Shown here piece by piece: positions 48,916-52,898 of a stretch of DNA of 64,000 bases. How positions within the stretch are numbered: the stretch's first letter is position 1; each line of letters opens with the position of its first letter. Below the pieces are notes generated by a model, which saw only the letters and a list, made by a program, of their open reading frames with translations, made no database searches and was not told the DNA's origin. Origin of the DNA: Bryobacterales bacterium (GTDB lineage: Bacteria; Acidobacteriota; Terriglobia; Bryobacterales; Bryobacteraceae); contig PMYB01000053.1 of NCBI GenBank assembly GCA_003170915.1, positions 87,921 to 151,920 on the forward strand. The letters are read 5' to 3'. A program made the translations under genes and the position numbers.

Positions 48916-49367
48916 AAAACATTCGGCTCATCACCGATGGCTCGTGCCTGGGAAATCCCGGCCGCGGCGGCTGGGCAGCTATCCTGCGCTACGACCACCT
49001 CAAGAAGGAGATGTGGGGATCGTCGCCGCACACCACCAATAACCGCATGGAGCTGACCGCGGCCATCGAAGGGCTGCGGGCGCTGCGCGAGGATTGCGAG
49101 GTGGAAGTGGTCACCGATTCCGAGTATGTGAAGAACGGGATCACCATCTGGATTCACGCATGGAAGCGCAAGAACTGGATGACTGCCGCCAAGAAGCCGG
49201 TGGTGAACCAGGACCTCTGGCAGGAGCTCGACGAGCTGGCGGCGCGTCACAAGACCACCTGGACCTGGACCAAGGGTCACGCGTCCCACGCGGACAACAA
49301 CCGCTGCGACGACCTGGCTACACGCGCGGCGAAAGAGCAGTCGAGCGGGACGAAACCATCGCCATGA
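48912..49367 (+). CDS. rnhA: Ribonuclease HI
   Basis: LITDGSCLGNPGRGGWAAILRY; NNRMELTAAIEGL; TDSEYVKNGI. Confidence 0.94.
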   Translation: MKNIRLITDGSCLGNPGRGGWAAILRYDHLKKEMWGSSPHTTNNRMELTAAIEGLRALREDCEVEVVTDSEYVKNGITIWIHAWKRKNWMTAAKKPVVNQDLWQELDELAARHKTTWTWTKGHASHADNNRCDDLATRAAKEQSSGTKPSP

Positions 49368-50581
49368 AACGCTCCGGATTTGCCGACTTGCCTCTGCATG
49401 GCGGCCACGTGCCCGCCTGGCTGGCCGAGCGCATGACCAAGCTGGGCACGGCGATCGCGGAGAGCATTCTCTACCACTACGGCCCCTCGGAGCTGCTTAG
49501 CCGGCTCAGCGACCCGTTCTGGTTTCAGGCGCTCGGCTGCGTCATGGGGATGGACTGGCACTCGTCGGGAATCACCACGTCGGTGCTGGGCGCTTTGAAG
49601 CGCGGATTGAACCCACGCGCGGGCGAGTTGGGCATCTATGTGTGCGGTGGACGAGGGCGGCATTCGCGCAACACCCCGGATGAACTGCGCGCAGTGGCCG
49701 ACACCCACAGCCTGGATGGCGAAGCCCTGGTGCGAGCCAGCCGGCTCACGGCGAAGATCGACAACAACGCCATCGCGGACGGCTTTCAGATCTACCTGCA
49801 CACGTTCGTCGTCACGGCGGCGGGAGAGTGGGCCGTAGTCCAACAGGGCATGAACGAGCGAAGCGGGCTGGCGCGCCGCTATCACTGGCATTCGCCGGCG
49901 GTTCGCGATTTCACCTCGCAGCCTCATACCGCGATTGTGGGCGAGCACCAGGGCACCATCATGAACCTGGTGGACACCCAGGCGGAGCCGGCGCAACGGG
50001 CGATGCTGGAGATTGTCCGCGAGCAGCCCGACGCAACTCTGGGAGAGTTGCGAAAACTGGTGGCTCCGGCGCACCACGATGTGCGCGCCGCGGACGTGGA
50101 CCTGAAGCGCCTGGGCGCGGTGCTGGCCACCGCTTACGAGCGGGAGTTCCGGGATTTCGCTTCGCTTCTGCTGCTGGAGAACCTCGGCCCGCGCACGCTT
50201 CAAGCGCTCGCGCTGATTGCCGAAGTGGTTCACGGAACGGCGACGCGGTTCTCGGACCCGGCGCGATTCTCATTCGCGTTGGGAGGCAAGGACCGGCATC
50301 CATTTCCGGTGCCGCTCAAGACCTATGACGAATCCATCTCGGTACTGCGCCGGTCGCTGGACGCGGCCAAGGTGGGCGATACCGAGAAGCTCGGCGGATT
50401 TGCCCGGCTCGACCGCTTCGTGCGGGCGGTGGAGCAAAACTGCGCGACCGAAGTGGATTTCGCGGGGGTTGTGGCGCATGAGAACGCCATTTCACGGGAA
50501 CTGGGCGGGAGAAGTGTGTTCGACGATCGAAAGCCGCGGCGCGGTGGGACGCCGGAGCCGCGGCAGATGACGTTATTTTGA
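49364..50581 (+). CDS. DUF763 family protein
   Basis: MKRSGFADLPLHGGHVPAWLAERMTKLGTAIAESILYHYGPSELLSRLSDPFWFQALGCVMGMDWHSSGITTSVLGALKRGLN. Confidence 0.9.
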   Translation: MKRSGFADLPLHGGHVPAWLAERMTKLGTAIAESILYHYGPSELLSRLSDPFWFQALGCVMGMDWHSSGITTSVLGALKRGLNPRAGELGIYVCGGRGRHSRNTPDELRAVADTHSLDGEALVRASRLTAKIDNNAIADGFQIYLHTFVVTAAGEWAVVQQGMNERSGLARRYHWHSPAVRDFTSQPHTAIVGEHQGTIMNLVDTQAEPAQRAMLEIVREQPDATLGELRKLVAPAHHDVRAADVDLKRLGAVLATAYEREFRDFASLLLLENLGPRTLQALALIAEVVHGTATRFSDPARFSFALGGKDRHPFPVPLKTYDESISVLRRSLDAAKVGDTEKLGGFARLDRFVRAVEQNCATEVDFAGVVAHENAISRELGGRSVFDDRKPRRGGTPEPRQMTLF

Positions 50582-50688: not shown

Positions 50689-50916
50689 ATGAAGCCAGCG
50701 CACCGTTTGACCGCGATCATTGAACGTGAGGACGACGGTTTCGTGGCGTTGTGCCCGGAGCTCGATATTGCGAGCGAGGGCGGATCGATTGAAGAAGCGC
50801 GAGTCAACCTGATCGAGGCGCTCACGCTGTTCTTCGAATCAGCCGCGCCTTCCGAAGTCGGCCGCCGCCTTCACGACGAGGTTTTTGTCACCCAGGTTGA
50901 GGTGCCGGTTGGGTAG
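50689..50916 (+). CDS. HicB-family antitoxin
   Basis: LTAIIEREDDGFVALCPELDIASEGGSIEEARVNLIEALTLFFE. Confidence 0.9.
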   Translation: MKPAHRLTAIIEREDDGFVALCPELDIASEGGSIEEARVNLIEALTLFFESAAPSEVGRRLHDEVFVTQVEVPVG

Positions 50917-51136
50917 ACTCCGGGTTCTTTCGGGGTCGGAGGTTTGTCGGATTCTCGAACAGCACGGATTCGTCGCAGTCCGCCAGCAAGGCAGCCATCG
51001 GATCATGCAAAAGAGGATTGAGACAACGACAATCACCGTTCCTGTTCCTCTTCACGATCCGGTCCGACGCGGGACCCTGCGGAGCATCGTTCGGCAATCG
51101 GAGCTCCCGAGATCGTTATTTGAAACCGAAAACTAG
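50909..51136 (+). CDS. HicA-family toxin
   Basis: GRLRVLSGSEVCRILEQHGFVAVRQQGSHRIMQKRIETTTITVPVPLHDPVRRGTLRSIVRQSEL; TTG start overlapping the HicB stop. Confidence 0.9.
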   Translation: MGRLRVLSGSEVCRILEQHGFVAVRQQGSHRIMQKRIETTTITVPVPLHDPVRRGTLRSIVRQSELPRSLFETEN

Positions 51137-51329: not shown

Positions 51330-51640
51330 CATCTGGTGTGATGCAGTCACGAACACGGTGCAGTCTGACCGCCGTTGAGTCCGGACACATCGTGGCGGGC
51401 ACAAGATCTTTCCGCTCCAGAAAGAAGCGGCATCGCAGTACCACCGTTCGGTTGAATGCCAGGTGGGGCTCGGGGCAGTACCAGCCGATGAACTCCTCGG
51501 TAGCATGTCCGTACGATTTTTAGGAACTCGGCGCCGCCAGCGAGTCCAGAACTGCATTCTTCGACTGCTCAAGGTCGGGCATGCTAGGTACTGTCTTGGG
51601 CTTCGAGAGCTTCGTCGCTTTATGTCGATGTGCCATAAGG
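51330..51640 (-). pseudogene. Degraded phage-type integrase (SAM-like N-terminal domain)
   Basis: DLEQSKNAVLDSLAAPSS(stop)..SYGHATEEFIGWYCPEPHLAFNRTVVLRCRFFLERKDLVPATM...STAVRLHRV across stops/frames. Confidence 0.65.
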
Positions 51641-51812: not shown

Positions 51813-52898
51813 GTGGAGTTGATCGCACATATGGAAACATCTCAAGGCAAATCTCTCCCGGATCTTCGTTGGGTGCCGCTTGAAGGCACGTGGGAAAAAG
51901 ACGGTGAGGATGCACTGGTTTATGTCGGCGGTGAATATGCCCCCCCAGTTTCACCGGCCACCTCGCCAGCCACGGTCGAGGAATCAAAGGAGCCAAGGCC
52001 AAAACTCGTATGGTTCGGGACAGCTCTCTTTGACCAACATTTCAAAGATGGCCGAATTAGGATGCAGGTCGAGTTTAGTAAAGTCGACCATCGATCCATA
52101 GCCGCGATCATGATTCAGTACGACCCTGGGACCAAGGACATGCTCGTTTTTGGCGTCTCGGGAGGGGGATTGAAATTCGAACCGGGAGTCTCAGGCTACT
52201 TCTTCAAGCTGATGCGATGGGCTTCGCCACGGGACCAGACTCAGAGCCAGCAAGGCGGTTCTGCGCCACCCAAAGTGTGGACTCCGCTTTTTGAAGTGGG
52301 TCTTGGCGTTAATCTTAGGGCCGATCGACCATATGACCTTGAGGTGCTTGTCCGTGGGGCCGTCGTCACCCTTTACGTGGACGGAGTTGAAATTGGAAAA
52401 CACACCCTCGCCATTCCGTCCCTTCCCGGCAACCCCTGGGGCATTTTTTGCGGCAGTCATAGTAAGGTTCATTTCCGCAAAATCTCCTTCAACCAAGCCG
52501 TTCCGAAGGCTTTCGTTGTGATGCAGTTTGAACCGCCGGAGTACGAAGCGCTGTTTCAGGATGTCATCGAGCCTGTTTGCAGATCTGAGGGTCTCAAAGC
52601 ATATCGCGCCGATTCCACTTACCTACCGGGCTTGGTGATCGAGGACATCAAAAGGCAAATTGCCGAATCTCGTGTCGTTATCGCGGAGATCACACCTTCC
52701 AACCCAAACGTCTATTACGAGGTTGGCTACGCGGACGCTCTTAACAAGCCTCTAATTCTAATCGCTGACCGGGAGGAAGGCCTGAAACCCTTTGATGTCC
52801 GGGCATACAGAACTATCTTTTATGAGAACAGCATCGGCGGCAAGAACAGAATAGAGAACGACCTCAGAGCGTATCTAAAAGGCATCATGGACAGATAA
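51813..52898 (+). CDS. ConA-like/DUF1080-type jelly-roll domain fused to nucleoside deoxyribosyltransferase/TIR-like domain
   Basis: N-terminal LVWFGTALFDQHFKDGRIRMQVEF...VTLYVDGVEIGKHTL...WGIFCGSHSKVHFRKISF; C-terminal AFVVMQFEPPEYEALFQDVIEPVCRSEGLKAYRAD...VIAEITPSNPNVYYEVGYADALNKPLILIAD. Confidence 0.78.
   Translation: MELIAHMETSQGKSLPDLRWVPLEGTWEKDGEDALVYVGGEYAPPVSPATSPATVEESKEPRPKLVWFGTALFDQHFKDGRIRMQVEFSKVDHRSIAAIMIQYDPGTKDMLVFGVSGGGLKFEPGVSGYFFKLMRWASPRDQTQSQQGGSAPPKVWTPLFEVGLGVNLRADRPYDLEVLVRGAVVTLYVDGVEIGKHTLAIPSLPGNPWGIFCGSHSKVHFRKISFNQAVPKAFVVMQFEPPEYEALFQDVIEPVCRSEGLKAYRADSTYLPGLVIEDIKRQIAESRVVIAEITPSNPNVYYEVGYADALNKPLILIADREEGLKPFDVRAYRTIFYENSIGGKNRIENDLRAYLKGIMDR

Follow-up and report, generated by a model that had tools for sequence, protein, structure and literature searches.

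A two-domain protein joining a lectin-fold sandwich to a TIR/NDT-like domain: a candidate single-gene NADase of bacterial immunity

A gene in the window (the whole 64,000-nucleotide stretch of Bryobacterales DNA analysed here) encodes a protein in which a ConA-type beta-sandwich precedes a domain that belongs, by its fold and its catalytic Glu, to the TIR/NDT-like superfamily. We give about even credence to the reading that the gene works on its own and encodes a sensor-gated TIR-like NADase that would act by abortive infection. The N-terminal lectin-fold sandwich would recognise a phage- or stress-derived ligand, or would lose an inhibitory partner, and recognition would lead to assembly of the C-terminal TIR/NDT-like domains. 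In the assembled form Glu297 would cleave the nicotinamide-ribosyl bond of NAD+, and loss of NAD+ would starve the infected cell, which is abortive infection. What the computations show is the pair of folds, the conservation of the Glu, the presence of Phe where NDT has Tyr, the mobility of the gene and its siting, in some cases, within prophages or restriction operons. We infer that NAD+ is the substrate, that a ligand and oligomerisation activate the protein and that it acts against phages. An immune role is a plausible reading, supported indirectly, and the most economical one.

The gene and its neighbourhood in the window

The open reading frame at 51813-52898 on the + strand is present, and the features in and around it are as follows.

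50689-50916, + strand: probable HicB antitoxin (basis: its position and the appearance of its sequence only)
50885-51136, + strand: HicA toxin (PF07927, E 1.8e-17)
51388-51600, − strand: remnant of the N-terminus of a tyrosine recombinase (integrase), interrupted by a stop
51831-52898, + strand: coding sequence of the two-domain protein, 355 aa from the ATG (361 aa if from the GTG at 51813)
51864-52496, + strand: ConA/CBM66-like beta-sandwich, putative sensor (residues about 12-222; AlphaFold2, Foldseek and Laminin_G_3)
52500-52895, + strand: TIR/NDT-like domain, putative effector (residues 224-355)
52512-52514, + strand: Phe228 codon; the residue lies in strand A, where NDT and DNPH1 have their Tyr
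52719-52721, + strand: codon for Glu297, the putative catalytic residue (E303 if counted from the GTG), in the motif NPNVYYEVG

Translation probably starts at the ATG at 51831 in preference to the GTG at 51813. The sequence GAGGTGGAG upstream of this ATG is a probable ribosome-binding sequence, and the GTG falls within it. The stop-free frame extends for 400 codons, against a maximum of 321 and a mean of 176 in 300 first-order Markov resamplings of the surrounding 2.4 kb, and homologues match the protein over its full length. In a hydropathy scan the highest value over 19 residues was 1.3, and neither a signal peptide nor a membrane segment is obvious; the protein is therefore presumed to be cytosolic.

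The earlier note had placed the gene beside a dead integrase and HicBA. The integrase part stands: when the interrupted peptide was used in tblastn it gave 54% identity (E 2e-19) to an annotated integrase from a Granulicella plasmid. For HicBA, HicA is secure. For the HicB candidate Pfam offered nothing significant (PHD_like alone, at E 0.093), and it had no match for the short ORFs that separate hicA from the two-domain gene. A functional link between the two-domain gene and HicBA was considered and dropped, as the homologues do not keep the same neighbours. The gene is GC-poor (GC3 0.57, compared with 0.63 for HicA and 0.76-0.86 for the flanking chromosomal genes), and the CHAD-Ppx pair beside it is conserved in relatives where no two-domain gene adjoins it. 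Its nearest relative, with 61% identity, is from Methylocapsa acidiphila (Alphaproteobacteria), and a quick tree pairs these two, rather than the window copy and those of its own family, with an SH-aLRT of 100. Because of its composition, the broken tyrosine integrase beside it and its alphaproteobacterial nearest relative, the window copy is judged to be horizontally acquired. A DUF763 gene further upstream (window 49181-50578, E 1e-130) is sporadic, occurring in two of 41 relative genomes including this one, and the variable stretch may therefore start ahead of hicBA.

Domain structure and active site

AlphaFold2, supplied with 37 aligned sequences, modelled the full-length protein as two domains (pLDDT 87.9, pTM 0.86). 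The best solved Foldseek match of the N-terminal domain is the carbohydrate-binding module CBM66 (4azz; TM 0.79 normalised to the target), followed by many other ConA-type lectins and glucanases, and the domain is a two-sheet ConA-type beta-sandwich; Pfam Laminin_G_3 matches it weakly (E 0.0025). The ConA-type sandwich proposed earlier is thus borne out by both model and structure search, but its DUF1080 label is not, as CBM66-type sandwiches score higher and no DUF1080 match was found with Pfam. The likeness to CBM66 is one of fold only, at an identity of about 10%, and the window sandwich differs in being joined to an enzyme domain, in a protein that is presumably cytosolic. In the full-length proteins mean pairwise identity is 24% for the N-terminal half and 53% for the C-terminal half; such faster divergence would be expected of a sensor, and equally of any relaxed domain.

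The C-terminal domain modelled alone is an alpha/beta domain (pLDDT 90.4) of the TIR/NDT type, for which Foldseek placed human and rat DNPH1/Rcl first (TM about 0.75) and also returned NDT (TM 0.59-0.65) and the MyD88 TIR filament (TM 0.70). Searches of the single window sequence against Pfam and NCBIfam gave sub-threshold matches or nothing for the two-domain protein: Nuc_deoxyrib_tr (PF05014) reached E 0.0014 and 19.2 bits, below the curated cut-off of 28.8, and neither PF10137 nor PF13271 (DUF4062) was found with Pfam. The PADLOC model ‘Effector, TIR’ (PDLC00733) matches the window protein at 5e-12 and all 37 family members searched. When the profile of 79 members was compared with PDB sequences it gave Rcl at E 1.3e-6 and Cap12 at E 0.055, and in profile-profile comparisons, where the partners were family alignments built from genomes that belong to the bacterial family of the window, the probabilities were 95.6 for NDT over 70 columns and 94.7 for the Cap12/Pycsar TIR over 118 of 133 columns, with far lower values for TIR_2 (64) and DUF4062 (23). 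The description of the C-terminus as NDT/TIR-like in the earlier note therefore agrees with structure search, PADLOC and profile comparison alike, although the protein fails the specific tests for membership of NDT, Cap12 or DUF4062.

The earlier note had also recommended a check for the conserved catalytic Glu, and E297 is invariant in all 79 aligned domains, together with N291, N293, G299, P320, F321 and D322. The residue in strand A is Phe in 77 of the 79 and Ser in the other two, never Tyr, whereas the same site is Tyr in NDT (6/6) and Phe in TIR_2 (20/20), Cap12 (16/16) and DUF4062 (15/16); it should be noted that this register was read from the sequences (PKAFVVMQF against PKAYIASAL and VPEVFIVHG) rather than from superposed coordinates. 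In NDT and DNPH1 the Tyr is hydrogen-bonded to the Glu and 2′-deoxy substrates are preferred, while NADase TIRs usually have Phe or Ala (PMC11204291). The active-site Tyr bonded to Glu that marks NDT is thus absent from the family, as far as the sequence register tells. As in the TIRs that cleave NAD, Phe rather than Tyr stands at this position, and NAD+ cleavage is therefore favoured over deoxyribosyl transfer as the probable chemistry.

Two other chemistries have to be weighed here. The domain could be a nucleotide or deoxynucleotide N-glycosidase of the NDT/DNPH1 type that starves phage replication or cleans the nucleotide pool. It is to DNPH1/Rcl and NDT that the top structural and PDB-sequence matches point, and NDT has the highest profile-profile value. 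Among solved structures those nearest to the domain belong to nucleotide N-glycosidases and not to NADases, which does weaken our main reading. However, the replacement of the Tyr beside the Glu, the absence from the family of the GSIRGG-type loop of DNPH1-like NDT sequences and the shorter span of the NDT alignment relative to that with Cap12 all count against such an enzyme, which we consider unlikely. Less probable still is a signal-producing TIR-like enzyme whose cyclic or base-exchanged ADP-ribose messenger activates a separate effector. Thoeris enzymes of the TIR family do this, including ThsB, which carries out base exchange with NDT-like sites (PMC11204291), but the homologues have no conserved adjacent partner gene and the system looks like a single gene. 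Our preference for a sensor-gated NADase is supported by the two-domain model, the DNPH1/NDT/TIR folds, the Cap12 profile, the PADLOC TIR match, E297 and the strand A Phe.

Distribution and genomic context of the family

Full-length members occur patchily in at least 11 phyla and on phage contigs, named carriers being Methylocapsa acidiphila B2, Massilimicrobiota timonensis An13, Hanstruepera ponticola MM-14 and Vibrio penaeicida TUMSAT-NU1. Within the bacterial family of the window, 200 genomes yielded no more than a handful. One such genome (L016, G087:C36) carries a full-length copy with a disrupted frame, consistent with gene turnover. The C-terminal domain itself is common: at E 1e-6 or better, 56 of the 200 genomes have a match, which mostly spans that domain only. 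Among 45 relatives of this domain the partner domains are DUF4062 (four), TIR (two), Mrr (one) and the MTES_1575 nuclease (one), all typical of conflict systems, and the fusion of the same domain to TIR, DUF4062 and restriction-nuclease domains supports the immune reading. In plasmid and phage records no full-length member was found at 80% coverage or above, only relatives of the C-terminal domain, and E. coli genomes gave no DNA match to a phage-borne member.

Three of these relatives are worth recording separately. ORF45 of Staphylococcus phage SAP-26 (L195:3923-4582) and a gene of Streptococcus phage Javan129 that lies between repressor and antirepressor in the lysogeny region (L194:4043-4822) are single genes that lack annotation and encode the same TIR/NDT-like domain; both are good candidates for small prophage defence genes. 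On a Sphingorhabdus plasmid (L283:2768-6546) a gene with this domain follows a dcm–vsr–type II endonuclease operon at a distance of 12 bp.

In Massilimicrobiota (L053:8686-14090) a full-length homologue has hsdS and hsdR of a type I restriction system as its immediate neighbours, and in Gemmiger (L062:7967-15112) a full-length homologue and two uncharacterised ORFs lie between the same two genes; both hosts are gut Bacillota, and the two copies are distant from each other in the family. On phage contigs the homologue follows a late tail gene (L114 and L117) or precedes the baseplate spike gene (L119 and L121). Accessory prophage loci are reservoirs of anti-phage genes, although the P2 hotspot is elsewhere, between gpA and gpQ (PMC9122126). 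The immune reading gains from these prophage tail-region sites, from the two copies between hsdS and hsdR and from horizontal transfer; transfer across phyla, the low GC3 and the fast-diverging N-terminal half likewise count for our main reading.

Other aspects of the context weaken the defence reading. Most chromosomal homologues have housekeeping neighbours, and PADLOC gave no clear excess among the matches listed for near (132 proteins) over far (142) neighbours, two restriction operons aside. In an acidobacterial clade (L048:9387-12690, L049:126-2862 and L004:1141-3627) an OsmC-like gene lies 10-12 bp downstream, together with an amino-acid permease, and in L048 an MsrA-like gene, recognised by motif, ends immediately upstream; these neighbours hint at an oxidative-stress context. 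On this evidence, and with a sandwich nearest in fold to the sugar-binding CBM66, the protein might instead be a stress- or carbohydrate-responsive regulator or a scavenging enzyme whose sandwich binds a sugar or metabolite and which has no anti-phage role. We regard this as improbable, to the same degree as the messenger-producing enzyme, since patchiness, cross-phylum transfer, the prophage and restriction-operon sites and the fast-evolving N-terminus fit conflict genes better.

Comparison with known systems

Besides CBM66, four known groups are closest to the window protein. The Cap12/Pycsar TIRs (PF10137), including TIR-STING (7un8), share with the window family the fold, the NVxxELG catalytic motif and the strand A Phe, but this is kinship at the level of profiles only, given the marginal PDB sequence match and the failure of PF10137 to match. 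A lectin-fold domain is present here, and neither a STING domain nor a cyclase gene was found beside the window gene (no cyclase-like Pfam match among the window ORFs tested). With NDT and DNPH1 the protein shares the fold and the position of the catalytic Glu, and PF05014 was detected in all eight members of the first alignment (A1), weakly in general and at best at 1.7e-7; it differs in its Phe for Tyr, its sub-cut-off Pfam score and its fusion to a sensor-like domain.

Swarozyc, a TIR-like NADase of the DUF4062 family (PMC13174449), is analogous in design, uniting a TIR-like NADase domain (putative in the window protein) with an auxiliary sensing domain in one protein, and has a similarly wide and patchy distribution. 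The auxiliary domain, however, is C-terminal in Swarozyc and N-terminal in the window protein, and kinship to DUF4062 is slight, as the low profile probability and missing Pfam match indicate. Since TIR-like proteins of the DUF4062 family have been shown to act as NADases against phages (PMC13174449), this analogy in design supports the same reading for the window protein. Finally, it is the C-terminal part of the PADLOC model PDLC00733 that matches the family, while about 240 N-terminal positions of the model are unmatched.

No defence protein combining a LamG/ConA domain with a TIR was found in the literature searched, and a lectin-fold sensor is part of no defence system described there. 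A bolder proposal, which we hold only tentatively and with clearly less conviction than our main reading, is that of an undescribed, phylum-spanning family of one-protein immune systems in which a cytosolic lectin-fold domain would directly recognise a phage structural protein or glycan and switch on a TIR-like NADase whose clade is separate from those of TIR_2, DUF4062 and Cap12. Immunity in bacteria, plants and animals alike draws on NADases of the TIR family, and new pairings of sensor and effector show what bacteria detect; here the effector is recognisable and the putative sensor is a fast-diverging lectin-fold domain.
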